A program made the position numbers and the translations under genes. The notes under the pieces are model-generated. The model searched no databases. It was not told the DNA's origin and was given only the letters and a program-made list of their open reading frames with translations. A stretch of 64,000 nt of DNA from a virus. Positions 18,436 to 45,712 of the stretch are shown here, one piece after another (position 1 is the stretch's first letter; every line of letters begins with the position of its first letter). The stretch spans positions 62,001-126,000 of IMG/VR virus record IMGVR_UViG_3300049460_000121; one strand, given 5' to 3'.

Positions 18436-19719
18436 TTACCAGGAACGGCCAGTTCCACGACGGCTGGTGTAACGGCTATTACGGCCGGTATCCCGCCCAC
18501 CACGGCGACCTTCGTCACGACGGCCACGGCCGCTGTCACGATCATCGTCACGGTCCCGGCCAGAACGGCCCAGGATTTCTGCCAGAGAACGACCGCCGCT
18601 GTCATCACGCTCTTCGTCACGGCTGCCACGATCACGCTCACGATCGCGGTCACGCTCTTCCGGTTCTTCACGACGGCTATCACGCCAGTTACGCTCGCGA
18701 GTACCTTCGTCACGACGGTTGCGTTCACGATCACGCTCGTCGCTGTTGCGGCGAGGACGATCTTCTTCCACCAGGCCCAGGTCATCACCACCCAGTTCCA
18801 GCGCTTCCTTCTTCACCGCTTCATCACGCTCTTTGCCACGGTTACCCGGAAGAACCGGGATAGCACGGCCATGGGTCGCTGCGAAGTTGGTGAAGTCCAC
18901 CAGTTGCTCAGTCCATGCCAGTTCAAACCGCAGACCGGACAGGCTGGAGACAGCTGGGGAGTGACGGTCAATCAACTTGTTCAGGTGAGTGGCCATTGCG
19001 TGGAACGACAGCAGCAACGAATGGAAGTATGGCGCCTCGCCGTCACTGGACGACTTGGTGAATGCCTTACGCTCTTCTTCGTTACCCAGGACGTATTCCA
19101 GCAGGTTGACGATCAGGTGCTTGTCCTTGGTCTTGCGAGCCATCTTCACGCCGAAGAACGTCGTGGTGTCTTCAGCACCAGCATCGTCCATGATCGGGAA
19201 GCTAACCACGCAGCTGCGCAGAGCACCGCCTTCGCCACCGTTCTTGAGGAACAGCGAAACCAGACGTTTCTCAGGAGCAGTACCCAGGGCATTGATTACC
19301 CGGACCAGAGTGTCCAGCGTCTTTTGGTCAGCTTCGACCAGCAGTTGCAGGAACTTCGCCGCATCAGCCTTCAGGCCTTTGTGACGTTTCTGGTCAATGG
19401 CCAATTCCATCAGACCGATGATGACTGCCTTGAAGGTTTCTTTCAGACGCAGCTGAACGTATTCCTTGTAGGCATTCAGGACAGGGCTTGGACCCTGGCT
19501 GATCTGCTCGGCCAACGGAGCGAACGCAATACGCCGTTCCCACTGACCGTCTTCCAGAATGGCAGCGGTTGGCAGGCAGAGACGTTTTGGGCCGATCGTT
19601 ACGGGTTTGGCGATGTCATCTGCCAGATACGACAGGAAACCTTCACCACTGGCGTCGAATACACCAACGTCTTTCAAGACATTGGCTTCGAACTCCAATA
19701 CAACTTCTTTCTTTGACAT
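18436..19719 (-). CDS. Unknown protein with long Arg/Asp/Glu-rich tail, 427 aa
   Basis: A folded-looking domain covers residues 1-315. It is followed by about 110 residues made almost only of Arg, Asp, Glu, Gly and Ser (RD and RE dipeptides), broken only by a short helix SLAEILGR. AGGAG precedes the ATG. By gene order (68-69-70-beta C) it would occupy the place of phiKZ gp70. The tail is a mixed-charge disordered region of the kind that binds RNA or drives condensation in other systems. Related tails occur on 19736-21289, 30164-32149 and 45023-45712. The function is unknown; a nucleus- or polymerase-associated role is inference. Confidence 0.7.
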   Translation of the reverse strand: MSKKEVVLEFEANVLKDVGVFDASGEGFLSYLADDIAKPVTIGPKRLCLPTAAILEDGQWERRIAFAPLAEQISQGPSPVLNAYKEYVQLRLKETFKAVIIGLMELAIDQKRHKGLKADAAKFLQLLVEADQKTLDTLVRVINALGTAPEKRLVSLFLKNGGEGGALRSCVVSFPIMDDAGAEDTTTFFGVKMARKTKDKHLIVNLLEYVLGNEEERKAFTKSSSDGEAPYFHSLLLSFHAMATHLNKLIDRHSPAVSSLSGLRFELAWTEQLVDFTNFAATHGRAIPVLPGNRGKERDEAVKKEALELGGDDLGLVEEDRPRRNSDERDRERNRRDEGTRERNWRDSRREEPEERDRDRERDRGSRDEERDDSGGRSLAEILGRSGRDRDDDRDSGRGRRDEGRRGGRDTGRNSRYTSRRGTGRSW

Positions 19720-19735
19720 GGGGTATAGCTCCTAA

Positions 19736-21289
19736 TTACCAGACTGGCCGGCCGTCACGACGTCCGCGCGAATCGCGGCTGTCACGGGCGTCCGACACAT
19801 CTGTGCTGAGACTGATGCCGCGGTTGATGTCGACATGGGACGGGGTGGAATCATCACGGGCGTGACGAACACCTTCGGCCAACTTGACGATCTCATCGGA
19901 CAACAGGTCGACGGTTTGGATAGTGTTGCTGAGGGTTGGGGCTACCAACGAGTCAGCGGCGCTGAAGAATGGGAAGTAATGCTCCTCACCCCCGTCAAGA
20001 CTGATCCAGATTTCGATATCCTGGTCAATGTTGGCGTTGATGGTGCAGTCAATATCCATCATGCCACCGTGGCTGATAGCTTGCAGGATGACCGACTCAA
20101 CCGTGGATTCGAAATACTCCAAGGTAGAGGTGGCTTCCAGTCCCTGTACAAACGGCGTGCAGCGCCCAGCCAGTACCCGAGGCTCGCCCATGCGGGCACG
20201 AGTGTTCAGGATGAGGTTGTCAACCTTCGAGTACATGGCGTTGATCATCACCACCGGAAGGCTCTGGGCAATGATGGTAGCTGCCAGGCATTCAGGGGAG
20301 TCCGAGTTCCAGCTACGCGCTTCGGACAGGTTGATGGAGGACTTCCGCATTTCGTACGGCGTGAACGGCATCTGTTCATCTTCATTGAACTCAGGATTCA
20401 TGTCCATGAGCTCGCCAAAGGTGATGTAGCCAGAGTCCATGATGCCGCTGACGCGACGCAACTCTTCCAGGTACGGATCCACGTCCAGGCAGTTCTCAGG
20501 TGCCAGGTCGGAGGCCGAGGCCATGATCAGATCGTCATCTTCACGATCAAGATCGCTACTGCCACGGGCCGAGGTTGCACGGGAGTGTGCGGTCAGGGCA
20601 CGAGACAGGAAGCGGGATGGGTCATTGTTCTCACGGGTCGATGCCCGCAGCTGAGAGCTAAAGGAACCAGTGGTGTTCGTACCGATAGAACCGGACGACC
20701 GCAGATGGCTACCGAATGCAGACTCGGAACCTTTGCGGTTGAACAGATCCATTGGACGCAGGGTCACTGGGGTCAGGTCAGTGCGACGACGCTCGCCATT
20801 AATAGCCGAACGGTTGAGGATCTGGTCATGCGCCTTGATAGACGGCTGCCAGATCTGACTGCCGCCACGGTAAGTGGCTGCTGACATGTGGACGCGAGTG
20901 ATCGAGTTGAAATACATCTTCATCTCAGGATCGAACTTCGCCCGGCCGGACAACTGGCTGTAGCCGGAGTGGTCGGTGTAGCCAACGATGTATTCGTAAT
21001 GGCTGGAGGTACGGCTGGTTTGAATCTCAACCACCATCGCAAACATCAGACGGCGCTCGCCCCAACCACCATCGATCTTTGAATCCATCTTGAAATCGAT
21101 GGACGGAACGATCATGCCTTCGCTTGCAGAGATTGCACTGGCCAGACGCTCGGCGGTAACACTACGACCATCATCGGTCAGGTTAACCACGCGGTCGATG
21201 TCTGACTGGGTGAAGTCGGTGTCGAAGGGACGAATCACGCCCTGCGCGGCACCATTGGTCTCCACCACACTCAATTTCAACAGTTTCAT
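19736..21289 (-). CDS. Candidate nuclear protein importer (PicA/Imp1, phiKZ gp69 position), 517 aa
   Basis: A GTG at 21298 is in frame, but the ATG at 21289 has AAGGAG at eight bases. A beta-rich N-terminal domain (about 1-150) is followed by a Ser/Arg/Thr-rich linker (about 165-245), a second folded domain (about 255-480) and a tail ending in RDSRDSRGRRDGRPVW. No enzyme motif is seen. It lies between a gp68-like candidate and two genes upstream of the beta C-terminal subunit, the position of phiKZ gp69. From memory, gp69 was identified as the factor that licenses protein import into the phage nucleus. The assignment rests on gene order and size only, since I cannot align the proteins here. 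Confidence 0.45.
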   Translation of the reverse strand: MKLLKLSVVETNGAAQGVIRPFDTDFTQSDIDRVVNLTDDGRSVTAERLASAISASEGMIVPSIDFKMDSKIDGGWGERRLMFAMVVEIQTSRTSSHYEYIVGYTDHSGYSQLSGRAKFDPEMKMYFNSITRVHMSAATYRGGSQIWQPSIKAHDQILNRSAINGERRRTDLTPVTLRPMDLFNRKGSESAFGSHLRSSGSIGTNTTGSFSSQLRASTRENNDPSRFLSRALTAHSRATSARGSSDLDREDDDLIMASASDLAPENCLDVDPYLEELRRVSGIMDSGYITFGELMDMNPEFNEDEQMPFTPYEMRKSSINLSEARSWNSDSPECLAATIIAQSLPVVMINAMYSKVDNLILNTRARMGEPRVLAGRCTPFVQGLEATSTLEYFESTVESVILQAISHGGMMDIDCTINANIDQDIEIWISLDGGEEHYFPFFSAADSLVAPTLSNTIQTVDLLSDEIVKLAEGVRHARDDSTPSHVDINRGISLSTDVSDARDSRDSRGRRDGRPVW

Positions 21290-21309
21290 GTTTCCCACTC
21301 CTTACTTAA

Positions 21310-22884
21310 TTAACGGACGTGATCATTCAGCTTGATCAGGATTTCAGCCAAGCGATTGCGGACGCTAGGCGAGATATCCAGGTACTCTGAAAGATCAGCG
21401 CGGTTGTATTCTACAGCGAGCTGTTTAGGGCAGTCGATGAACCAATCGGACCGCATGAACTCTTTGATGATCTCTTCGATGCCCCGCACTGCCGAGTTGG
21501 CAATGAACAGTTGATCGTCACGCTTAGGATCAGGCATCAGGTACGGGTTGATAACATCCAACACGTCCCGGTGCGTTTGGCTAACTTTCGCCTTGCTGAG
21601 TTCAGTGGTGATTGCTGATACGTCCTTTCGGGCAGTCAGCATGATGGCCAAGTCCAGGAATCCCCATTCCCAGAGAATCGTCTGCGCTACAGCCATGTTG
21701 TTCTTCAATGTTTCCATGTCGAACATGTCAATCACCACACCGGCGATAACAGTGGACATGATCCAAGCGGCCAGGCCTTTCTGGGCCCGTGTCGGGTTGA
21801 AGTCTTCAATGGTTGCGATGTGAGCGATAGCCGCTTGCAAACGCTCCGGTTGGTAGTTCGGATCGATTGCGGCAGCGCAAGTGTGGTACTCGTTCACGTA
21901 CAGCTGGATGAGAGTCAACTCACCGGCGGTAATCGCTTCCTTCATCTTGTACATCGACCAGACGGAGGAGTTATCCTCAACTGGCCCAGCTCCGCTCTTC
22001 TTCTCGGCGACTTGCTGTTTGAACTCGGTAGCCATGCGGTCAAACCGGCCATCGATATAGTTGTACAAGATCTTCATCAGGTGATCACGCTCACGCTCAA
22101 TAGAGAGTGGGGCAATCGAGAGCTTACGGATAACGGCCAGAGCCAACAGGTACGTCGGGATTTCTTCCGACGACATGAAGTTCAGTGCCGCGGTGATGTC
22201 GTACGTGGTTTCTTTGAGATTAGCCCGAACGTACACGTCCAAGCGAGTAAACGCTGGGATCTTGTAGAACTTGCTGTTCATGATCAACTGGTAGGAGGTG
22301 AACTCCTTCATGTTGATGTTTGACTCTTTGCCTGCGATCGGCAGATAGAAACCCCAGATTGGGATCATCAGACGCAAGCCCAATGCCACAGCCACCAGAT
22401 CGATGTATTCCTGGAGGCGGTAGGTCAGGGACTTGTAGGTTGGGGTGATCTTGTCTTCAGTCACGTAATCGTCCGACAGTTCCTGCGGTAGCCGGATCTT
22501 CGGATTGGTGACGATGAATTCGCGCAACTGGTCGAACTTGACGATATTGTAGATACCGTTGACTTCACGCATGATGGCACGCGTCAGGTCGTCGATGTTG
22601 CAGTCTTTCGGGTTGGACTGAGTAAAGATACCTTCCAGCTTTTCGTAATGCAGGAACAGCTGGTCCTTCTGATCTTCGGACAAGTACTTCTGGAGAAACT
22701 GGTTGATCTCCGCGAACATGTCAAGATGGCTCCCAATCTCATCGTCCTCACGAACGGAAGCATTGGGACGGGCGGTCGAGTAGCCTCCTGTTGGGAAGAA
22801 CAACTCACCTTCCGTACCGGGTTCCCGCGTTAGCGACACCGCGGAGAAACTTCGTTCGGTGTAGGTAGAGATTTTAAATTCCAT
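21310..22884 (-). CDS. Candidate fifth subunit of the non-virion RNA polymerase (phiKZ gp68 position), 524 aa
   Basis: GTG at 22887 directly precedes the preferred ATG at 22884, with AGGAG upstream. The protein is helical, acidic and without known motifs. Size and location (upstream of the gp69-like and gp70-like genes and of the beta C-terminal subunit, same strand) match phiKZ gp68. I recall gp68 as a roughly 520-residue subunit without homology to bacterial proteins, needed for the activity of the five-subunit polymerase. The assignment is inferred from synteny. The gene is followed by the gp69-like gene after 20 bases. Confidence 0.5.
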   Translation of the reverse strand: MEFKISTYTERSFSAVSLTREPGTEGELFFPTGGYSTARPNASVREDDEIGSHLDMFAEINQFLQKYLSEDQKDQLFLHYEKLEGIFTQSNPKDCNIDDLTRAIMREVNGIYNIVKFDQLREFIVTNPKIRLPQELSDDYVTEDKITPTYKSLTYRLQEYIDLVAVALGLRLMIPIWGFYLPIAGKESNINMKEFTSYQLIMNSKFYKIPAFTRLDVYVRANLKETTYDITAALNFMSSEEIPTYLLALAVIRKLSIAPLSIERERDHLMKILYNYIDGRFDRMATEFKQQVAEKKSGAGPVEDNSSVWSMYKMKEAITAGELTLIQLYVNEYHTCAAAIDPNYQPERLQAAIAHIATIEDFNPTRAQKGLAAWIMSTVIAGVVIDMFDMETLKNNMAVAQTILWEWGFLDLAIMLTARKDVSAITTELSKAKVSQTHRDVLDVINPYLMPDPKRDDQLFIANSAVRGIEEIIKEFMRSDWFIDCPKQLAVEYNRADLSEYLDISPSVRNRLAEILIKLNDHVR

Positions 22885-22912
22885 CACGGACTCCTAGGTG
22901 AGTGGTCACTAG

Positions 22913-22984
22913 TATAATGTAGCATTGTAAAGTTTTATCATGAACGGGCATAATTTCCTCGATACAGGCCCCAAAGGGACCTGT
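22913..22984. promoter_or_regulatory. Intergenic region with TATAATGTA, AT-rich box and hairpin
   Basis: The 138-base gap between 22884 and 23023 holds TATAATGTA (22913-22921), GTAAAGTTTTA (22927-22937) and a small hairpin ACAGG-CCCCAAAGGG-A-CCTGT (22964-22984). The hairpin could end the SSB-like transcript, and the AT-rich boxes could start the gp68-like operon. GTAAAGTTTTA also occurs at 62885. Confidence 0.4.
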
Positions 22985-23022
22985 ACCTTAGATCGAGATA
23001 CCGTGGTTTACTTGGTTAGACC

Positions 23023-23820
23023 CTAGAAAGGGATATCGTCGTCGAAGCTATCGGACGCTGGGGCCGGTGCTTGTTGTGGACGAGGAGCTTGTTGCTGATT
23101 GCCGCCGTTGTAGTTGTTACCGCCACCACCGCCGTTGTTTGGACGATTGTAGTTGTTACCACCACCGCCACCTGGACGTTGGCCACCGTTGGCCTGAGCA
23201 TTCTGCATGCGCTCAAGACGTTTCTTCTTCTGGAACTCTGGTTCTTTCCAGTTCACCGCGAAGTTGGTGTTGTAGATGTCGCCCAACGCTTTGGCCCAAC
23301 CGGCCGCTGCAACTGGGGAGGTGATCTTCAGAGGAGCCGGCTGGCCGTTCTGAGTGATCGGGTGGAAATCACCTGGCTCGAATACGAACTCGACCAGTTG
23401 CATCTTCTTGGCAGCCAATGCGATGGTAACAACGCCATCGGCGCGCTTCTGAACCTGGGTCTTCGAAATGATGACTCGGTCTTTGGAGCGAATGGACTTG
23501 CCCTGATCGCGGTCCCAGATGAACGGGTGACCCCAGTTCTCGACTTCGAACGAAATCTCGTTAGGGTAGGCCGCTACCTTTTCCAGAAGGATCAGCAGAG
23601 TGTTGAACTCTTTTGGATCCATCGGGCCCTCGATTTTCATCGGGTAGCCTTTCTCGGTTTTCATGCCGAGGTCGACTTCGATGCAAGGGTTGTTTTCGAT
23701 CAACTTGATGCGCAGGCTTGGTGGGTATGCGCCTTCCTGGATTGGTTTGCCATACAGACGCAGCTTACTGTCATCCATGCAGCCTGGGTCACGACGAGCT
23801 TTCTCTGGTGCGTTCGACAT
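23023..23820 (-). CDS. Single-stranded DNA-binding protein candidate with host-SSB-like acidic tip, 265 aa
   Basis: The upstream ATG at 23859 lacks a ribosome site; the ATG at 23820 has AGAGAAG. Residues 1-195 are a beta-rich domain without a pattern I can assign with certainty. Residues about 200-250 form a Gly/Asn/Gln/Pro-rich linker with two GGGGGNNYN units. The protein ends in DSFDDDIPF, nearly identical to the end of E. coli SSB (DFDDDIPF), which recruits host repair and replication proteins. Folded domain, flexible linker and acidic tip is the standard SSB layout. It is located among replication and recombination genes. The OB fold itself is not demonstrated by eye. Confidence 0.65.
   Translation of the reverse strand: MSNAPEKARRDPGCMDDSKLRLYGKPIQEGAYPPSLRIKLIENNPCIEVDLGMKTEKGYPMKIEGPMDPKEFNTLLILLEKVAAYPNEISFEVENWGHPFIWDRDQGKSIRSKDRVIISKTQVQKRADGVVTIALAAKKMQLVEFVFEPGDFHPITQNGQPAPLKITSPVAAAGWAKALGDIYNTNFAVNWKEPEFQKKKRLERMQNAQANGGQRPGGGGGNNYNRPNNGGGGGNNYNGGNQQQAPRPQQAPAPASDSFDDDIPF
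23108..23172. repeat. Two in-frame direct repeats in the SSB-like linker
   Basis: A 26-base unit beginning TTGTAGTTGTTACC is found at 23108-23133 and 23147-23172 with three mismatches or fewer, a period of 39 bases (13 codons). It encodes the GGGGGNNYN units and probably arose by slippage. Confidence 0.7.
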
Positions 23821-23874
23821 TAATACTTCTCTTGACGAGTGGGGAATAGTGCAGTGCAACTAATGCGCACGACA

Positions 23875-23888
23875 TGTAAAATTTAAAA
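23875..23888 (-). promoter_or_regulatory. AT-rich promoter candidate for the SSB-like gene
   Basis: On the minus strand TTTTAAATTTTACA lies about 55 bases upstream of the ATG at 23820 and overlaps the end of the previous gene. It belongs to the TTTTACA group seen ahead of several operons. Confidence 0.3.
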
Positions 23889-24740
23889 GCGGTAGAGGTC
23901 TTTCACCAGCGCTTCGAGTGCCGGATCACGATTCTGCTCCACACAATAGATGACGAAGTCTTTCGTCGTCATTGGTGTCCATTTGTTCTTCTCAGACAGC
24001 TCGATCAACTTCTGACGAACCTTGAGATTCATAGGAGTGAACGTGACGTTGTCACCGAACATTTGGACCGTCATCCGGTCAAACGGAATGCGCTCCAGCT
24101 CTTTGCCGTCCTTTAACTTGGTGTTCCACAGGGATGGCGGCTTAACGGCGCCTGTGTGGGATTCCAGCAAAGTCAGGCTGTCAAACTTGTAACGCTCAAG
24201 TAGATCCACAGGATAGTGAGAAATCAACAGCACCTTGCTGTGGACCTCTGGAAACTTCCGGGTCAGGGTCAAATACGGGATATGGCCCTGGTACTCACTA
24301 TCGATCACCTTGAGGACTTGTTCCTCGAAGATGTGTGAAGCTTTCTGCCCTGGTGACGTTGGGACCTTGAGGATCGCCTTGTTGAAGGTGTAGGTCAGGT
24401 CGTTGTAGCTACATTTATAGAAGGCTACATCAAACCGACCATCCCCATGCTCCACGCAGACCGTTTCAATCGCCCGCATCTCATTGACGATGTACTCAGC
24501 CACCGTCTGCTCAGTGAGGTGCTTGCGGTCCTCGGTCTTGATAGAACCCATCAGGTTACGGATCAGTGTCCGCATATTAACCCAGAGGGTGTCGTGGTCC
24601 TGGATAGGCGGGTGAGCGTTGGGGGCGTCTGGGAAGATGCCGATCAACGACTCAATAGCCAGGGACGTGGAGATGGAGATGGGAAACTGACCAACCGCCC
24701 GATTGGTCAAGAGTTCCCGCGAAACTGATTCTAAGGACAT
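23883..24740 (-). CDS. Unknown protein, 285 aa
   Basis: AGGAG precedes the ATG. The product is mixed alpha/beta with no membrane segment and no motif I recognise. It lies between the SbcD-like operon and the SSB-like gene, so a DNA-metabolism role is a reasonable guess from the neighbours only. Confidence 0.7.
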   Translation of the reverse strand: MSLESVSRELLTNRAVGQFPISISTSLAIESLIGIFPDAPNAHPPIQDHDTLWVNMRTLIRNLMGSIKTEDRKHLTEQTVAEYIVNEMRAIETVCVEHGDGRFDVAFYKCSYNDLTYTFNKAILKVPTSPGQKASHIFEEQVLKVIDSEYQGHIPYLTLTRKFPEVHSKVLLISHYPVDLLERYKFDSLTLLESHTGAVKPPSLWNTKLKDGKELERIPFDRMTVQMFGDNVTFTPMNLKVRQKLIELSEKNKWTPMTTKDFVIYCVEQNRDPALEALVKDLYRF

Positions 24741-24761
24741 GGGATCACTCCTAATGAGCGA

Positions 24762-24962
24762 TTATTGGTTACCCGGCCAAGTGACGGCGTCGGCTTTACC
24801 GGTGAAGACCATCCAGGCAAGTTTGATGCGGCGGACAATGCCGCCATAGCCCAGTGGTCGTGCTGGAACCCATTGATTCCCAATGTTGACCGAATTACCT
24901 ACCTCACCGGTAGTGGATTTGATCAGTTGGGTCAGGGTGTACAGGCGTGGGGTGTTCTTCAT
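24762..24962 (-). CDS. Unknown small basic protein, 66 aa
   Basis: The ATG at 24962 overlaps the stop of the SbcD-like gene as ATGA, so it is translationally coupled. An upstream ATG at 25031 lies inside that gene and is rejected. Residues 40-55 (GIVRRIKLAWMVFTGKAD) are amphipathic and hydrophobic enough to touch a membrane or a partner. The function is unknown. Confidence 0.6.
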   Translation of the reverse strand: MKNTPRLYTLTQLIKSTTGEVGNSVNIGNQWVPARPLGYGGIVRRIKLAWMVFTGKADAVTWPGNQ

Positions 24963-26146
24963 GCAGCCTCCGCGAGGATTCGTTTGATACAGTCGAGTAC
25001 GGGTTTCTCTACATCTTTCACACGCGACCACAGGAGGTCGTTGATCGTATCAGGACGGATAGCCACGATGACTGGCCGTTCGATAAGCTCGGTTGTGTCT
25101 GGCGTGTAGGCATCAGCTTCCACCACCTTGGTCGTGATGTTGAACTGAGGGAACCGGGCCTTGATCTCAGCCAGGGCTGCGTACACGGGATCCTCACGAC
25201 TGATCTCCAACCGGATATGGCTACCGGATGGGAGGTTCTCACGACCCTCCAGGAACTTGTACGCAGCTTTGATCTGCACACCCTTGAGGTCGAAGGTCGA
25301 GAAGATAGTAGCGTCGTCATTGACGATGAAGAGTTCGTTAGCCGCTGTCCAATCTTTACAAATCGTGAACTGGAGGTGGCCTTTGTCCTCCTCCTCATTA
25401 TGCCGCAAACGCTCAGGGGAGCCGGGCACAGTGATTCGCCCACAGGTGGTGTGGGTGTGGTGGTGGCCGATGTAGATCCGCTCTGTCACGATCGAGTGGT
25501 AGTTCTCCACATTGTGGCTGACCACGGTGCGGATTGGCTCTTGGTACGTGAACATGCCGTGCATAAACGCATATTGTACCTGAGGGACTCCACGTTGACG
25601 CAGGAGCTCGTTTACCTGCATCCAGGTAACACTGGCGTCGTGGTTTACTTCGTCCGGCACATAAAGCGCCAGAGGCCCTCCAGCGTACAACTCATCAATC
25701 GCCAGCGTGCCGTAGTACTTGATGTCGAGGTTGATGTTCGACACTTCGTTAATCAATGGCAGCCAACGCGACTGTTTGTTGTCGTGGCTAGGGGTACCTT
25801 CCAGAATCCGTACAGCGACGTTGTGTTTGGCGCACTGACGGAGGAAGATCTCGATCCACCTGGTGATCAGCAATGCATCATCGCTGTCGTAGGTCAATCG
25901 TTTGTCGAATAAGTCACCAGTAATCATGATCATGTCAAGAAGCTTTAACCGCTCCTCGGGGAACATGGTCATCAGGGTCTTGATCACTTTGCTGGCGTGG
26001 ACTCGTCCATGTCCCAAATGGACGTCGCTGATCAGCGCCACGGTATAACCAGCCGCTACTTCACGGATGGCAGCAGTTATACCGTTGAGCTTAACGCGGA
26101 GGATGCGAGTCTCAGTAGATGAGGTCATCGTCTGAGGAGTCGTCAT
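24959..26146 (-). CDS. SbcD/Mre11-type nuclease (metallophosphoesterase)
   Basis: The calcineurin-like phosphoesterase motifs are present in order: DVH at 41-43, TGDLFD near 76, SHDN near 124 (in place of GNHD), and IGHHHTH near 222. These coordinate the two metal ions of SbcD/Mre11 nucleases, and T4 gp47 is the phage example. The partner ATPase (SbcC/gp46) is not in the window. It would process DNA ends during recombination-dependent replication. AGAAGAG lies before the ATG, which overlaps the upstream gene's end by 35 bases. The following 66-residue gene is coupled to it. Confidence 0.85.
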   Translation of the reverse strand: MTTPQTMTSSTETRILRVKLNGITAAIREVAAGYTVALISDVHLGHGRVHASKVIKTLMTMFPEERLKLLDMIMITGDLFDKRLTYDSDDALLITRWIEIFLRQCAKHNVAVRILEGTPSHDNKQSRWLPLINEVSNINLDIKYYGTLAIDELYAGGPLALYVPDEVNHDASVTWMQVNELLRQRGVPQVQYAFMHGMFTYQEPIRTVVSHNVENYHSIVTERIYIGHHHTHTTCGRITVPGSPERLRHNEEEDKGHLQFTICKDWTAANELFIVNDDATIFSTFDLKGVQIKAAYKFLEGRENLPSGSHIRLEISREDPVYAALAEIKARFPQFNITTKVVEADAYTPDTTELIERPVIVAIRPDTINDLLWSRVKDVEKPVLDCIKRILAEAA

Positions 26147-26762
26147 GGGTCTCTTCTGGTTGCGGGGCTGGTAGTGCCGCTTGTGTGGTATTGCGTTTCT
26201 TGGCCAGTGCCAGGATCTCGTCAGCTTGAGGTCCGAGCAGTTCTTCCATAGGTATCTGGTAGAACTTGTAAATATCTACCAACAACATAATCGCATCGGC
26301 GCGATGATGCATTTCGGTTTGAGGCTTATGGGCCTCGTAGATACCGTCTTCGATAGCCATCACACCGCGCATGTCGCCGTTGACGATCATATCGGTCTGT
26401 TGCTGTACGATGTGGTGGGTTGTGGTGAAACGACCCTCAGGCGGCGTTGTCTTGAGCTCAATGTCAATGAATGCTGGTGGGCAGACAAACAGCAACTCAC
26501 CGGAATCATTGACGATGTTCATCGGGTTGTTCAGGCCATCAGCCGTGTTCAACCAAACGCCCAGGTCTTCACAGACCTCGTTACGTACACGCTTGCGTAC
26601 GATAGGCAGTATGACCGCCTGGAAGTACTTCTCCCGCACGTTACGGATTCGGGCTGAGCTACCGGCGTTGATCGCGGCAACCGCACTGTCGAAGCCTTCC
26701 AGGCCCCGACGTACGATTTCTTGATAAGTGTGGTCGGCTTGGGCTTGGGTGAATTGGGTCAT
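26112..26762 (-). CDS. Unknown protein with acidic C-terminal tip, 216 aa
   Basis: The ATG at 26762 has AGGA nine bases upstream; the longer frame to 26795 lies within a hairpin and is rejected. The body is helical. The end (PEETHDDSSDDDLIY) is a cluster of acidic residues closed by hydrophobic residues, similar in design to the SSB-like tip of 23023-23820, although not the canonical DIPF. It overlaps the SbcD-like gene, which suggests a partner. Function unknown. Confidence 0.65.
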   Translation of the reverse strand: MTQFTQAQADHTYQEIVRRGLEGFDSAVAAINAGSSARIRNVREKYFQAVILPIVRKRVRNEVCEDLGVWLNTADGLNNPMNIVNDSGELLFVCPPAFIDIELKTTPPEGRFTTTHHIVQQQTDMIVNGDMRGVMAIEDGIYEAHKPQTEMHHRADAIMLLVDIYKFYQIPMEELLGPQADEILALAKKRNTTQAALPAPQPEETHDDSSDDDLIY

Positions 26763-26778
26763 AAATGAATTCCTGTCA

Positions 26779-26804
26779 AGCTGGAGGGTTTTCACCCTCC
26801 AGCT
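26779..26804. terminator. Hairpin between 26762 and 26823
   Basis: AGCTGGAGGGT pairs perfectly with its complement across TTTC. It lies in the gap just downstream (minus strand) of the gene ending at 26823. Confidence 0.65.
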
Positions 26805-26822
26805 GTGATTGTTACGGCCTAA

Positions 26823-27422
26823 TTACTGAACCGCTGCTGCCACAGTCGCGGCTTCAGAGGATTTCAGCAGTTCTTCAGGACTGGCGCTGTCCAGCTTTTC
26901 GCGCAGAGCTTCGGTAGCCTGGAACATGTCGGTCATGGCTTCCATGTGCGCTTCGATGCCGGCGGCGGTAGTCACGTAGAAGACTAGACCTGGCTGCACT
27001 GCCTGAGACAGAACCAGCTTGGACAGCATTTCCAGAGGAGCAGCTTCCAGAGGCATTGCTTTCCAGACCGGACGGGTCATCTGCACGCCATTCACTTCGT
27101 GCGGTTCCAGGACCAGCTTGCCTTCGGCGTCTTTGGCTTCTTCTTCGAACTTGACGAAGAACTCACCTTCGTTGATGCCGACGGTTGCACGAGCCGAACC
27201 GCGGTAGTAGGTGCCGACTACTACTGGACGGAACTGAGCACGCTCGTCCTTGGCACGACGTTCCTGAACCAGGCCCAGCAGGAAGCCCAACAGGGATTCA
27301 GCCTGGATGGCCTTGTTTTCAGGGATGCTCAGCACTTCGGTCATGGTACCGGCTACGAAGGCACGCAGCTCTTCGGTAGTTTGTGGGAACGCGATCGGTG
27401 CAGGGGTTTGAACTTCAGACAT
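26823..27422 (-). CDS. Unknown acidic protein, 199 aa
   Basis: AAGGAAG precedes the ATG. It has alpha-helical ends, a beta-rich centre, and an Ala/Glu-rich C-terminus. No motif is recognised. Its codon use is strongly biased to C- and G-ending codons, as in the virion and shell candidates, hinting at abundant expression. The function is unknown. Confidence 0.7.
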   Translation of the reverse strand: MSEVQTPAPIAFPQTTEELRAFVAGTMTEVLSIPENKAIQAESLLGFLLGLVQERRAKDERAQFRPVVVGTYYRGSARATVGINEGEFFVKFEEEAKDAEGKLVLEPHEVNGVQMTRPVWKAMPLEAAPLEMLSKLVLSQAVQPGLVFYVTTAAGIEAHMEAMTDMFQATEALREKLDSASPEELLKSSEAATVAAAVQ

Positions 27423-27451
27423 GGTACTTCCTTAATAGGCGGGTTTTTTGA

Positions 27452-27877
27452 TTACGAGGCGTAAACGATGGCACCATTACTAACGTTTACAATGGACTTG
27501 AGGGCTGAATCTCGAGTCGTCAGCGCGTACCCAACACTGGTGCTGGTGGTGCCTGCTGCTGTACTGTCGGTCACCGTCGCCTCAACTTTCAGGTTGATTC
27601 CAGGATCGTCCCCATCGTTCTCGACGGATACGTTCACTGTGGCGCTGGAGAAGAATTTTGCCAGGAATTTCTGGAGTTCCGCTTGAACCTCACCCGGAAT
27701 GGTTAGGTCATCATCCCCGTAGAGTTGAATGATCTTGGCCAAAGAGGTGATGTTGCCACGGTACAGAGTGGTCTGGCTATGTTTTGCGAAGAAGAAACAG
27801 CACATCAGGTAGTCGATCTTGATATCGATATCAGCGATGACCCCTTCCTTGCCTAGTCCTAGGATGCTCGTGGACAC
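27452..27877 (-). CDS. Unknown protein, 141 aa, GTG start
   Basis: The best start is GTG at 27877 with GAGG nine bases upstream. The N-terminal 80 residues look helical with cysteines and phenylalanines in the middle (MCCFFF). The second half is beta-rich and Ser/Thr/Val-rich. It is the first gene after the terminator at 27917. No family recognised. Confidence 0.65.
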   Translation of the reverse strand: MSTSILGLGKEGVIADIDIKIDYLMCCFFFAKHSQTTLYRGNITSLAKIIQLYGDDDLTIPGEVQAELQKFLAKFFSSATVNVSVENDGDDPGINLKVEATVTDSTAAGTTSTSVGYALTTRDSALKSIVNVSNGAIVYAS

Positions 27878-27916
27878 AGGATGATACCTCGGCCATGGAA
27901 TACATCCTATTACGAC

Positions 27917-27960
27917 AAAAAAAGAAAGGGAGTAGGGGAGCCGAAGCTCCCCAGTCCTTT
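27917..27960 (-). terminator. Terminator of the beta-prime N-terminal operon
   Basis: GGGGAGC-CGAA-GCTCCCC with further outer pairing is followed on the minus strand by CTTTCTTTTTTTGT. The 27 bases at 27935-27961 are identical to 62999-63025. Confidence 0.85.
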
Positions 27961-28582
27961 ACAACGTCTTGCGGGTTGGACTGCCAGGATCCTGCTTGCC
28001 CCGGTCCAGAATCTCTGCGAGAGTCCGGTGGGTGTCGCGGGCGGCATCTTTCTCGTTCTGGTTGAACTTGGCGTCGCCGTGTTCATCCACAATTCCAAGG
28101 TAAGTAACGAAAGTATCTTCGCCCTCTTCACCTTCGGCATGCACACCGTTGTAGATCTCACGGTACATGTCGTGTTCCCGACCGATGCTGTCGCGCTCGT
28201 CGTCTTCGTACAGACCGTCGTACCCATCTGCCTGACCTTTATACCACAGGGCCCGGTAGCGTGGGAACGCCATGACGATTGCGCGGTTACGCGGTTTGGC
28301 ATTCTGGAAGTCGCCCAGGTCCACCAGGGGAAGAATGCGGTCTTCATCCCAGCGTTTACCGAAGCGATCCCGCATACCTTCCACACGATCGCGGATGGAG
28401 CTGAAGTCGAAGTTGTCCAACGCTTCTTTCGCGCGGCCCAGGTACCGTGAAGCAAAGTTCCCAGCCGTGCGCGCGACTTTGTCGATACGATCCCGGAAGA
28501 ACTCCAGGTCGTTACGCGACATCATCCCGTGTGTCGATGCGTGTATCACATCGGCGTCACCGTCGCTCACAATGTACGCCAT
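27959..28582 (-). CDS. Unknown charged protein, 207 aa
   Basis: GGAGGG precedes the ATG. The product is rich in Asp, Glu and Arg, with a 15-residue segment of aromatic and hydrophobic residues (IVMAFPRYRALWYKG) in the centre. The Asp/Arg-rich halves are compositionally close to the R/D-rich proteins nearby. It lies six bases downstream of the beta-prime N-terminal gene, in the position of phiKZ gp56. Unknown function. Confidence 0.7.
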   Translation of the reverse strand: MAYIVSDGDADVIHASTHGMMSRNDLEFFRDRIDKVARTAGNFASRYLGRAKEALDNFDFSSIRDRVEGMRDRFGKRWDEDRILPLVDLGDFQNAKPRNRAIVMAFPRYRALWYKGQADGYDGLYEDDERDSIGREHDMYREIYNGVHAEGEEGEDTFVTYLGIVDEHGDAKFNQNEKDAARDTHRTLAEILDRGKQDPGSPTRKTL

Positions 28583-28587
28583 GATAG

Positions 28588-30078
28588 TTAACCCTCCAAT
28601 TCAACAGAATAATCTTCACCTTCCTCAAGTCTAGCGTTAATGGTTGACAATACCGGAGCCGGGATCATCGCATGGTCGCTCACTTGGAAAGGTACGTCCA
28701 AGTCCATGATGCCAGTGCTAGGGGCCATCCGATCGAAAGCGCGGGCTGTGAAATTATCCAGCGCCAGTTGACCAGACATGTAGTCGCCGTCGAAGTCGGC
28801 GTTTGGTGCCTTGAGGCAGAGTACCGAGATACTGGTACTCAGTTGGTTCGGATCACGCTTGATGGTTCTGATGTAGAAGCGCTGAGTGGAGCCACGCTTC
28901 AGGGACGGGAATCGCGTGAATGTACACGGTATCCCTTTGCCGCCAGGCGTTTCCGCGATCAACTGATCGAAGATTCGCTCCAGCTTGTGGTGAGTTCGTA
29001 GAACGTTGTCGTAGATGAGGGTGAAGATCTCGTTGGGAGTATAACCTTCTCTACGTAATTTGTTCGCAATGTGAAGTTTTAACGTTAAGACCGCAGTGCC
29101 CCAAGGAATGTCGAGTTCTTCGTGGTTATGCGGCGTGTGTTTGGAAGTGATCACCGTCCGGAAAGTCCAGTGCGGATCCACCCCGTAGGCCAACTTGCGG
29201 AAGATCCCCTTCTTCGGGAAGATCTTGTTCTTTTCGTTCTCCTGATAGTACATCACCAGGTTAGCCAGAGATCGAGCCACGCGGGACTCTACCTGAGACA
29301 TGGAACGTTTGCGGGCACGTTCAGTGTTCGCAATGGACAGCAATGCGTTCAACGCAGGAGCCATTTTCGGATCCGCGTAGATTCTTTCCCCTACGGTCTC
29401 CAGAATGAACCCGATCTTACTCGGGAATGGCAGGTATTTGCAGAACACCACGTTACGGATCATGTCGATAAATCGAAGCATTTCCTTCCCTTCTTTGTCA
29501 GCAAAGAAAGTCCGTGTGCGGCATAAAGCAGTAATGATGGCGTCAAAGTTGTCATGGAACGAGGTCAGACCACGTTTGAAACCCATACGGGTAACGACAG
29601 CTTCAACGGGACAGTCCTCTTTCAAGGCCTGATAAGACGGGTCCAAGAACCAGTCCAGTGCAGAGAATCCATTCTTTAACAGCTTCTTGCGGAGCTGCGT
29701 ATAAACGGTTAGGTTTAGGAATCCAGGGATCCCATCCGGTACGCGTACCCACACCAGAGGTTCAATACTCTGTTCAGTTACGGGCAAGCATTCAAAACCA
29801 CAGTTCGGACACATGCGATGAACCAGGTGCCCACCTTTTGTCTCGCGGCAGGGGCAGGAGGGAACGTTAGAGAACACGTCACCATCGTAGCTACTGTACA
29901 CAAGACGGTTAAACCGGACTCGACCTTCTTCCGTCGACAGGTCAATGTCGTTTGCCAACACTGGCTCGGTACCCAAACGGCGAAACAGATCGTCGTAATC
30001 TACGATGATCGGATAGATGCCCTTACGTCCAATGTACCGGAATCGGGGCTCTGTAATATCGCCTGTAATGAGTTCCAT
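28588..30078 (-). CDS. Non-virion RNA polymerase beta-prime N-terminal subunit
   Basis: The catalytic NADFDGD is present, with the three metal-binding aspartates in DFDGD at residues 428-432. A zinc-ribbon-like site is formed by C75, C77, C90 and C93, as in the beta-prime zinc-binding domain. At 496 residues it ends shortly after the active site, and the rest of beta-prime is encoded at 13790-15757. GGAGAG precedes the ATG. Immediately upstream on the same strand lies the shell candidate, the gp54-gp55 order of phiKZ, which supports assignment to the non-virion enzyme. Confidence 0.9.
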   Translation of the reverse strand: MELITGDITEPRFRYIGRKGIYPIIVDYDDLFRRLGTEPVLANDIDLSTEEGRVRFNRLVYSSYDGDVFSNVPSCPCRETKGGHLVHRMCPNCGFECLPVTEQSIEPLVWVRVPDGIPGFLNLTVYTQLRKKLLKNGFSALDWFLDPSYQALKEDCPVEAVVTRMGFKRGLTSFHDNFDAIITALCRTRTFFADKEGKEMLRFIDMIRNVVFCKYLPFPSKIGFILETVGERIYADPKMAPALNALLSIANTERARKRSMSQVESRVARSLANLVMYYQENEKNKIFPKKGIFRKLAYGVDPHWTFRTVITSKHTPHNHEELDIPWGTAVLTLKLHIANKLRREGYTPNEIFTLIYDNVLRTHHKLERIFDQLIAETPGGKGIPCTFTRFPSLKRGSTQRFYIRTIKRDPNQLSTSISVLCLKAPNADFDGDYMSGQLALDNFTARAFDRMAPSTGIMDLDVPFQVSDHAMIPAPVLSTINARLEEGEDYSVELEG

Positions 30079-30110
30079 ACTTCTCTCCGGTGGGACATAA
30101 ATAAAAAATA

Positions 30111-30137
30111 GAGCAGGAGGGGTTTCCCCCTCCGCTC
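30111..30137. terminator. Hairpin after the shell candidate
   Basis: GAGC-A-GGAGGGG pairs with CCCCTCC-G-CTC. An A/T-rich tract at 30098-30110 gives a U-rich run on the minus strand. It lies between the shell candidate and the beta-prime gene, so it would make the shell message partly independent. Confidence 0.65.
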
Positions 30138-30163
30138 CAGGTTTACGCTACCACTAAAGGAAC

Positions 30164-32149
30164 TTAGTAGTAGTTGCCACCGCTGTACGGACGGCGACGG
30201 CGATCAGCGCTGTCGTCGGAACGATTGCGGCGAGTACGACCGATTTCGCTGGTTGCGTACTGGCTGTAGCCATCGTGACCGATCGAGCGACGAGTCGACA
30301 GACCATCGTTGGACGAAACGTGCGGAGACATCTTCGCACCATCCAGCGAGTCTTGCAGAGCGATCAGGTAGTCCAGGTCGAAGGCCAGTTGCTCGGCAGT
30401 GCCGGTAACGTGCAGACCAGGAACCACTTTACGCAGGATCGCGTAACGCTCAGCCAGGTTGAACTCGATCGAACGACGGGTGTCTTCGAAAGTAGCCTGG
30501 AAGTCCTGTACCAGGTCCAGGTTCTTCTCGCCAACACGAGTCAGCAACGCAGGGACGTTCCATTCACGGATGTCACGGCGGTTCTGGTTCTCGTCCAACC
30601 AGGTGCCCAGCAGGGTGCGGCTACCGGTAGTGTAGACCGGACGGTAGTCGTTACCCAGGTTACGCTTGGCCAACGCATCGCTGAAGCGATTGCCGGTCAG
30701 AACGTCTGCCGAAGCATGCAGCAGGTCGATCAAGTCGTCCAGCTCGGTGCCAGGCTCTGCGATCGCGATGCGCTCGTAGATGCTCAGTACCCAGGACTTC
30801 TCGCCCGAGGATGGAACGGTCATGCCGAACGCGACGTCAGGCTTGACGGTCAGGTCGAGGTAATCGGCCAGATCGTTGTCGCTGATGTTCGGACCGATGT
30901 CCTTGGCTACGCAGGCAGCTTCTTCGTCCGGGTTCATCAGGAACAGATGGCCCAGGGAAGTCAGAGGCTTGAGACCTTCGGCCAGAGTGGCGCGAGGACG
31001 CAGCATGGTTGCCCAGCGGTAGTCGTTGGACTGTTGCACTGCCTGAGCGATCAGGAGTTGTGCCAGTTCCAGCGAGTACGGGAAGTCGCCCGAGCCAACA
31101 GAGTTGATGTTCAACACTGCTTGCCAGAACGGGCTCTCGGTATCACGACCACGACGGCGACGGCCGCCGAAACGACGCTGTTCGCTTTCGCCCTTCTCGT
31201 CGTAGGAGACGAACATGTCCAGGCCGCAGCGGATGTCGCCCATTTTGGTACGGGAGAACAGGTTGTCTTCGCCGTTCGGCTCGGAGTAGTACAGGTTGGT
31301 GGTCACGTCGCTACGAACAGGCAGACCCGAAGTGTCGATGATCTGCTTGCCGGTGTAGTCGAACGCGATTTCCAGACGGGAGCCTTTACCCATCTTGTCC
31401 GGGCTAACGCGGAACTGCGAGGAACGAGTGCCCGACTTGGCGTCGATCATGTTCTCGCGGAAGCCGCAGATGGCCTCCATCGCGTTATCGTAGATGTGAG
31501 CAACGATCTGCTCCATCTCTTTCTCGGTACGGTGGGTGAAGGTGTCAGCCAGGATAACCTGATTGCCAACCACACGGGCAGTACCGCCAACGGCCGCTTG
31601 AGCCTGATCACGCACGATGTTGATGTACGTTTCGGTCAGGTGATCTTCTGGCAGAACCAGAGCGTCGAAGGTTTCGCCACGCTCAACCAGCGGACGGGTT
31701 TGCACGTCGCCGCTTTGCTCGATCAGCAGGATGTAGGTCAGGGCGTAACGCTCGGCACCGATGGTGGCCGGCAGAACAACCAACAGGCTGGATTGCGAAG
31801 AACGCGCCAGCGAGCCATCCATCGGGATGACCTTGAACAGGTTACGCTTGGTTTCAGCAGGAACGCCAGGCTTGTCGTAAGTCTTGGCGTTCTCGAAGGT
31901 ATTAACCAGCAGAGACAGAACCGCATCGCTCAGGCCGCCCATGGATGGACGAGCTTGGAGGCGGGACATGTCAGCGAAGGTCACCTGAGTTTCGCGGTTT
32001 TCATCGCGACGGCTGCCACGGCTGCCACGGTCGCTGTCGCGGGAATCACGCTCGTCACGGCTACGATCTTCACGCAGTTCGGAACGGGTGTCTTCGCGAC
32101 GCGGCTCTTTAGCATTGTCCGGGGCGTCGGTTACAAAAGTATCGCTCAT
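30164..32149 (-). CDS. Candidate phage nucleus shell protein (chimallin/ChmA, phiKZ gp54 position), 661 aa
   Basis: GGAGATGCAAC precedes the ATG. It lies directly upstream of the beta-prime N-terminal subunit, as phiKZ gp54 (nuclear shell) lies next to gp55, and it has the right size class. Codon use is highly biased, fitting an abundant protein. Residues about 17-52 form an R/D/S-rich segment, an R-rich loop lies near 325-340 (RRFGGRRRRGRD), and the last 35 residues are again Arg/Asp-rich. The central part is a folded alpha/beta body. No alignment to a known shell protein was possible, so the name is by synteny. A major virion or RNA-binding protein is the alternative. Confidence 0.5.
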   Translation of the reverse strand: MSDTFVTDAPDNAKEPRREDTRSELREDRSRDERDSRDSDRGSRGSRRDENRETQVTFADMSRLQARPSMGGLSDAVLSLLVNTFENAKTYDKPGVPAETKRNLFKVIPMDGSLARSSQSSLLVVLPATIGAERYALTYILLIEQSGDVQTRPLVERGETFDALVLPEDHLTETYINIVRDQAQAAVGGTARVVGNQVILADTFTHRTEKEMEQIVAHIYDNAMEAICGFRENMIDAKSGTRSSQFRVSPDKMGKGSRLEIAFDYTGKQIIDTSGLPVRSDVTTNLYYSEPNGEDNLFSRTKMGDIRCGLDMFVSYDEKGESEQRRFGGRRRRGRDTESPFWQAVLNINSVGSGDFPYSLELAQLLIAQAVQQSNDYRWATMLRPRATLAEGLKPLTSLGHLFLMNPDEEAACVAKDIGPNISDNDLADYLDLTVKPDVAFGMTVPSSGEKSWVLSIYERIAIAEPGTELDDLIDLLHASADVLTGNRFSDALAKRNLGNDYRPVYTTGSRTLLGTWLDENQNRRDIREWNVPALLTRVGEKNLDLVQDFQATFEDTRRSIEFNLAERYAILRKVVPGLHVTGTAEQLAFDLDYLIALQDSLDGAKMSPHVSSNDGLSTRRSIGHDGYSQYATSEIGRTRRNRSDDSADRRRRPYSGGNYY

Positions 32150-32334
32150 GTTGCATCTCCAGATGTGTATACACGTTTTATTAGCGAGTGGGACTATTCC
32201 CAGAATTCAGTACGATTCCTTCGTATCGCTATTGAAGGTTCCCAGTGGGATTTCTACCGTCGTAGACACTGGGCCTACTCATCCGTTGTACTAGCGGACT
32301 GCGGGTTAACAACAGTTGCGGTCTGTGTCACTAG

Positions 32335-32361
32335 AATAATGTAGGTCTGTGAATTTTTACA
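32335..32361 (+). promoter_or_regulatory. ATAATGTA and AATTTTTACA boxes
   Basis: In the 347-base divergent gap between the genes starting at 32149 (minus) and 32497 (plus), ATAATGTA (32336-32343) is followed by AATTTTTACA (32352-32361). Both motif types recur at other operon starts. The rest of the gap, 32150-32330, contains no reading frame I can support. Confidence 0.35.
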
Positions 32362-45022: not shown

Positions 45023-45712
45023 TTAACGGGCTCGACGCGAGTTCCGCTCATCGCGCTCGTGACGTGGCGACACGCGTTGCATGTCCTCACGAGAGCTGTT
45101 GCGGTGAAGTGCTGGCATCCAACGTTCGCCCCGCGAAGGGCTGTCGTTGCGGTGATCGCCGTAGACGGCTTCGATGGCCAGTTCTTTGATCTGTTGCGGA
45201 GTGGCCTGGATGTTGCCGCCGAGACGACTGATCAGACCTTCAGTGAGGATTTCTTCCTGACCTTCCAGCGCGTACCAGACACCGAGGTCCAGCAGACCGC
45301 CGATGTCGTCATTCTGACCGTCTTCGATCAGCAGAGGACGCAGACGCGACGCGTAGAAGTCCAAGAAGTAGGAAACCTCCACTTCATCGATGTCGCGGAT
45401 GGCGTGAAGTACCGTCTGCATCTGGAAGATGTCGAAGATCAGGGCGTGAGCCATGTTCTCCAAGAACACCTTCCGGACGCCAGCCACTTCCACGAATGTG
45501 GTGAAGGTGGACTCAGCCTGAGGTTGTTCGGCCGCAGTCCGGCTACGGACACCGAGGACGCGCTCACCCAGACTGGCATCAGCACCAGGCTTGGCGGCCG
45601 CTTTATCGGCAGCCGATTTTGGACCAGGTTTAGCGCCTGGCTTAGGGCCTGGCTTGACGCGTTCTTTTGCGTCAGCAGCTTTAGCAGGTGTAGCGGTTGT
45701 CTTGCCAGCCAT
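45023..45712 (-). CDS. Unknown protein with basic N-terminus and Arg-rich tail, 229 aa
   Basis: AAGGAGCCG precedes the ATG. Residues 1-55 are Lys/Pro/Ala/Gly-rich with PGPKPGAKPGPK; about 65-185 is a folded helical domain; about 188-229 is an Arg/Asp/Ser-rich tail ending RDERNSRRAR-like. The two disordered basic ends suggest nucleic-acid binding. The tail resembles those of 18436-19719 and 30164-32149. It lies nine bases downstream of the 160-residue gene. Function unknown. Confidence 0.65.
   Translation of the reverse strand: MAGKTTATPAKAADAKERVKPGPKPGAKPGPKSAADKAAAKPGADASLGERVLGVRSRTAAEQPQAESTFTTFVEVAGVRKVFLENMAHALIFDIFQMQTVLHAIRDIDEVEVSYFLDFYASRLRPLLIEDGQNDDIGGLLDLGVWYALEGQEEILTEGLISRLGGNIQATPQQIKELAIEAVYGDHRNDSPSRGERWMPALHRNSSREDMQRVSPRHERDERNSRRAR

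Follow-up and report, generated by a model that had tools for sequence, protein, structure and literature searches.

The DNA analysed here (the window) is a stretch of 64,000 nucleotides taken from a 267-kb IMG/VR virus record (bases 62001-126000). A minus-strand block running from 32149 to 15789 reproduces the phiKZ gene order: ChmA, nvRNAP beta-prime part, SbcD-like nuclease, gp66, ChmC, gp68, PicA, gp70 and nvRNAP beta, with the PicA/Imp1 homologue sitting between gp68 and gp70, as in phiKZ. This phiKZ-like order identifies the source phage, at the level of its genes, as a chimallivirus, a nucleus-forming jumbo phage. In PhiPA3, ChmC (gp61), PicA (gp63) and the gp70 homologue (gp64) localise to the nuclear shell (PMC10643120), and PicA is an import factor (PMC11087766). 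A 2025 review counts PicA, ChmC and Imp3 among the shell proteins localised in PhiPA3, and its wording suggests that the gp70 homologue may be Imp3. A 689-codon open frame antisense to chmA, on the plus strand at 30275-32344, was rejected as a coding-strand shadow. The features discussed below are listed in Table 1.

Table 1. Location and supporting evidence of the features discussed (window positions, except where the record is named).
Feature	Position	Strand	Evidence or remarks
gp70 homologue (phiKZ gp70 = PhiPA3 gp64)	18436..19719	-	phrog_3520 E 3e-58; tblastn to PhiPA3 gp064 E 3e-25; adjoins PicA (synteny)
Disordered Arg/Asp/Glu-rich C-tail of gp70 homologue, residues 307-427 (121 residues)	18439..18801	-	
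Short helical motif RSLAEILGRSG in gp70 tail, S-phi-x-D/E-phi-L class	18559..18591	-	AF2 helix 379-383; motif scan
PicA/Imp1 homologue, protein importer	19736..21289	-	phrog_3141 E 2e-59; phiKZ order 068-069-070 reproduced
PicA C-tail, residues 468-517, ending VSDARDSRDSRGRRDGRPVW	19739..19888	-	
Short charged stretch within PicA, residues 234-253, AHSRATSARGSSDLDREDDD	20531..20590	-	
ChmC (gp67) homologue, shell/RNA-binding family, Gly/Asn tail; negative control	23023..23820	-	phrog_3284
ChmA, chimallin, nuclear shell protein	30164..32149	-	phrog_4795 E 3e-41; PF25677 28.5 bits, cut-off 27; Foldseek Goslar chimallin 7sqv E 2e-29
ChmA C-tail, residues 606-661, moderately Arg-rich	30167..30334	-	
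ChmA internal disordered loop, residues 317-340, DEKGESEQRRFGGRRRRGRDTESP	31130..31201	-	pLDDT <50 at 319-335
ChmA disordered N-tail, residues 1-71, Arg/Asp/Glu-rich at 14-53	31937..32149	-	
Arg/Asp-containing end of lineage-specific protein, not counted in set	45026..45160	-	relatives in 3 close contigs only, tail variable
phiKZ-gp124 homologue, outside window	record 196628-198556 (L011:10628-12556)		two end domains + middle linker

A sequence-only reading of this DNA had described Arg/Asp-rich tails on several proteins of the neighbourhood, and for the gp70 homologue this was borne out. The ~275 ORFs of the phage were scored in 40-residue windows for low complexity in Arg plus Asp/Glu, the null being the whole proteome shuffled 20 times and pooled, with a maximum of 30.5; the gp70 homologue tops the list at 48.5 and ChmA comes second at 44. 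AlphaFold2 gives the gp70 homologue a folded core over residues 1-305 (pLDDT ~97), followed by a tail, residues 307-427, that lies mostly below 50 and has a charged fraction of 0.59. The core has strong structural matches in BFVD, which, where named, are proteins of phages such as PhiEaH1, RSF1 and RP12; no fold match was found for it in a structure search of the PDB. The close relatives L002, L003 and L023 keep the tails, which are under purifying selection (dN/dS 0.06-0.29): between the window and these relatives dN/dS is 0.11-0.29 in the gp70 tail, 0.13 in the ChmA N-tail and 0.06 in the ChmA C-tail.

ChmA superposes on the 7sqv chimallin with a Foldseek E of 2.3e-29 and TMt 0.81. Charged segments had been proposed for both its ends; the N-tail does carry one, at residues 14-53, while the C-tail, with a charged fraction of 0.30, is weaker, and the internal segment at residues 317-340 had been missed. 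Its pLDDT falls below 50 mainly at residues 1-71, 319-335 and 618-661, with short exceptions. The internal loop corresponds to residues 302-321 of the 201phi2-1 chimallin, where the cryo-EM structure lacks residues 307-319, which had to be modelled (PMC9365700); the uncharged N-tail of the 201phi2-1 protein is dispensable for joining an existing shell (PMC9365700).

The charged end claimed for PicA was confirmed: its mixed-charge part consists of the last ~20 residues and a short internal stretch, though its score of 30.0 is only at the shuffle maximum and alone would not stand out. The same is true of the score of the protein at 45023-45712, also 30.0; its end does contain Arg and Asp, as had been read, but the protein has just three close relatives and a variable tail and was left out of the set. 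(It has an Ala/Pro/Lys-rich start and a conserved PSRGERWMPxLHRNSSRED motif, then the variable charged end.) The product of 27959-28582, likewise listed as Asp/Arg-rich, belongs to a conserved folded family, phrog_3254, which is merely charged and has no low-complexity segment, and was rejected. The view of the tails as a property of the polymerase neighbourhood was dropped as well: among the block genes scored, no such segments were found in the intervening polymerase subunits, SbcD-like nuclease, gp66 or gp68, and a fourth protein with a matching segment, the gp124 homologue, lies far away, outside the window.

The family was surveyed in 75 non-redundant phages with the block, drawn from three scans anchored on gp66 together with eight named phages. 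The charged fraction of the gp70 tail is bimodal among them, with 25 phages at 0.39-0.65, 50 at 0.03-0.26 and none between 0.26 and 0.39, and the tails are of two types, Arg/Asp-rich and Q/P/G/M/W-rich. Lys is nearly absent from the charged tails, K/(K+R) being 0.03-0.13 as against 0.45-0.52 in the proteome (here 0.05 and 0.50). Net charge per residue is 0.00 in the tail described here and averages +0.014 over the 25 phages, and charge segregation is below that of shuffles in 96%, i.e. the two signs are well mixed.

The chemistry of the gp70 tail is matched by that of other shell proteins of the same phage. In phylogenetically independent contrasts on a polymerase/nuclease tree (gp66, gp68, SbcD, nvRNAP), the charged fraction of the gp70 tail covaries with that of the ChmA loop (r=0.74, n=68), the PicA tail (0.71), the ChmA C-tail (0.68) and the ChmA N-tail (0.47, n=62), and the controls are flat: ChmC tail -0.12, gp66 0.08, SbcD -0.15, gp68 0.21 and gp70 core 0.10. 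These results are unchanged when GC is partialled out; the contrast p-values overstate independence because the switches are few, the charged state needing five changes on the polymerase/nuclease tree and four on the shell-gene tree, with a single charged clade not rejected by the shell genes together. An unsupervised test, in which the proteins of each phage were ranked by similarity of composition to its own gp70 tail, placed ChmA at 1/275, 4/177, 3/277, 2/227, 1/333, 2/255, 19/283 and 3/363 (Fisher p 2e-9), with ChmC scattered from rank 3 to rank 190. When a foreign gp70 tail was used as query, the median percentile of ChmA worsened from 0.006 to 0.090, with no such difference for ChmC. Within the uncharged phages alone, the charged fraction of ChmA is not significantly related to that of gp70 (r 0.00-0.24), and the match of ChmA to gp70 is largely one of two states. 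Visual inspection of uncharged phages nevertheless shows W/G/Q segments in gp70, the ChmA loop and gp124 of FLC9, and Q/M/Y/P segments in RAY, both in gp70 and in the ChmA loop. The segments are disordered, maintained by selection, coupled in their residue chemistry and specific to the shell set. The common code that had been suspected therefore returns in a stronger form, matched within each phage and switching together, though its bearers are shell and import proteins rather than those of the polymerase neighbourhood. A literature search that took in few subscription papers or preprints found no earlier report of such coupling.

ChmC, whose Gly/Asn tail is uncoupled from the switch, was rejected as a member of the set. 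Its homologue here ends, at 23026-23052, in DSFDDDIPF, an acidic-hydrophobic tip of the bacterial SSB kind, and in 46 of the 75 relatives the last two residues of ChmC are P and then F, L or M, and the final ten include three or more acidic ones; such a tip may recruit SSB-binding proteins.

One element of the gp70 tail appears to stand apart from its bulk composition. A seeded motif search found the S-phi-x-D-phi-L helix (here residues 377-387) retained in most gp70 tails of either chemistry, though in-sample p-values for it are optimistic and cross-trained recovery was 8/25 and 20/50. The motif scan did not find it in the gp70 tails of the PCH45 group or of L049 and L227, and a free Gibbs search of the tails returned only compositional bias close to the tail start. 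The helix is a candidate docking motif, separate from the bulk tail chemistry.

In genome-wide scans of four charged-type phages gp70 came first in all four, and gp124 homologues were the only other shared family near the top besides gp70 and ChmA. The gp124 linker is rich in Arg, Gly and Asp in charged phages, and in Gln, Met, Pro, Gly and Trp in the others; its charged fraction follows that of the gp70 tail in contrasts (r=0.59, n=42), and within the uncharged phages alone the two agree residue by residue (G 0.73, W 0.61, P 0.53, Y 0.50, M 0.48). The gene adjoins that of nvRNAP subunit gp123, and depletion of gp124 in phiKZ changes phage transcription (PMC12571901). The gp124 homologue is a candidate for an unrecognised member of the shell set. 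In RAY, the Gln/Met/Pro segment of an 827-residue protein (L367:2926-5409) is the best match in the proteome to the gp70 tail; this is possibly the RAY gp124 equivalent, the profile match being not significant. Also outside the window, at record 138763-146739, lies a 2658-residue protein with an Arg/Gly-rich segment, probably the tape-measure protein judging by its size, and similar-sized proteins in other charged phages show weaker signals.

The explanation we lean towards, with moderate confidence, is that the matched low-complexity regions of ChmA, gp70, PicA and gp124 cohere by like chemistry, the whole set switching together. Segments of like chemistry would attract one another, through Arg-Asp/Glu contacts here and Gln, aromatic and Met contacts elsewhere. 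The ChmA lattice displays many such disordered segments, which together would make up a thin cohesive layer, and gp70, PicA and gp124 would partition into it; the layer would anchor the import machinery at the shell and might shut out proteins with the wrong tail chemistry, and the helix of the gp70 tail would act separately, as a motif for specific docking. Any protein whose tail was mismatched would stop partitioning, and chemistry would be expected to switch for the set as a whole. Against such cohesion stand the ChmC family, which is shell-localised too, yet has an unrelated tail, the dispensable N-tail of the 201phi2-1 chimallin, the two-state nature of the ChmA match and the small number of switches.

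The main rival to cohesion is parallel adaptation to a shared environment, in which the segments would be solubility or anti-fouling brushes facing one compartment, each adapting separately to host cytoplasm, salt or host condensates. This would give the same covariation, and the ChmA core (r 0.65, or 0.54 without the loop) and the PicA core (0.68) also gain charge along with the gp70 tail in charged phages. We nevertheless think it improbable: DT01, which is charged, and the uncharged phiKZ-type phages are both recorded from Pseudomonas aeruginosa, the shell-localised ChmC family is unchanged, and the residue-specific match of gp70 and gp124 in G, W, M and Y is hard to obtain from a general condition.

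It might also be supposed that the charged set arose once, in one lineage, and that shell genes were then exchanged, the tails being functionally unlinked. The shell genes together (AU p 0.32) and PicA alone (0.30) do allow a single charged clade, but the polymerase/nuclease genes (p 2e-5) and the gp70 core alone (p 0.022) reject it, and the charge bias of the PicA and ChmA cores can draw charged groups together in trees. Moreover, gp124 lies elsewhere in the genome, so that a transfer would have to bring in more than one piece, in itself a sign that they are functionally linked; the chances of a single origin of unlinked tails seem slim. On the polymerase/nuclease tree, each charged group surpasses its sister group in the charge of the gp70 tail, of the ChmA loop and C-tail and of the PicA tail, and does not do so in that of ChmC, though with just four supported independent pairs a sign test is unable to reach 0.05. 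Either the set switched repeatedly, four or five times, with the PicA and ChmA charge bias pulling the trees together, or it was exchanged as a unit; in both cases the parts belong together.

Binding of RNA as the shared function, which the sequence-only reading had named as one possibility, is not favoured. The segments are Arg-rich and the RNA-binding ChmC is encoded in the same block (PMC12908238), in keeping with tails that would hold phage mRNA on its way out across the shell; but net charge is near zero with the signs well mixed, an alternating (DR) peptide did not phase-separate where a blocky version separated and took up RNA (PMC9324279), and the same positions are uncharged, rich in Gln/Pro/Gly/Met, in two thirds of the relatives, which makes RNA handling quite unlikely. 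Neutral drift, with tails growing by codon repeats and tracking genome composition, finds a weak correlation of GC with the charged state (r 0.25) in its favour but is contradicted already by the selection and control results (the low dN/dS of the gp70 and ChmA tails, the near absence of Lys where it makes up 50% of basic residues in the proteome, the unchanged ChmC tail and the lack of effect of GC correction), and we give it hardly any credence.

Arg-enriched mixed-charge domains, whose composition rules are known, enter nuclear speckles (PMC9324279). The charged tails resemble them in preferring Arg over Lys, in their Asp/Glu partners, and in being near-neutral, well mixed and disordered; unlike them, the tails belong to the shell and import proteins of a bacteriophage, are located on a protein shell and have a chemistry that is exchanged among related phages. 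The chimallins of 201phi2-1 and Goslar are the same protein as ChmA, with tails and an unresolved loop at the same positions. Their tails are known as flexible, and the CTS is required for self-assembly; in the literature covered, the tail chemistry, its switch and its match to other shell proteins are undescribed. ChmC, the RNA-binding protein of the phage nucleus, is likewise of a shell-associated family, encoded by a neighbouring gene and equipped with a disordered Gly-rich tail, but its tail chemistry does not follow the switch; Enustun et al., in 2024, reportedly saw it form condensates with RNA. The FG nucleoporins of the eukaryotic nuclear pore are alike only in how they work, as disordered low-complexity segments on a selective-transport barrier; their sequences are unrelated to the phage tails, in which direct reading found no FG or GLFG repeats.

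Returning to cohesion by like chemistry, the observed coupling suggests an adhesion system, shared and swappable, by which the machinery of the phage nucleus would be held together. This bears on two questions, namely how import and export factors stay on the shell and how a nucleus refuses the proteins of another phage; matched tail chemistry that switches as a set offers a direct and cheap test of both, and nominates gp124 for the shell set. A bolder version, which we hold only tentatively and think rather doubtful, is that chimalliviruses possess an exchangeable low-complexity code, with a single chemistry common to all disordered segments of shell and transport factors and switched in entire sets, that admits proteins to a given phage nucleus and provides self/non-self discrimination between co-infecting phages. 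The set is also a case of coordinated evolution in condensate-type sequences outside eukaryotes.
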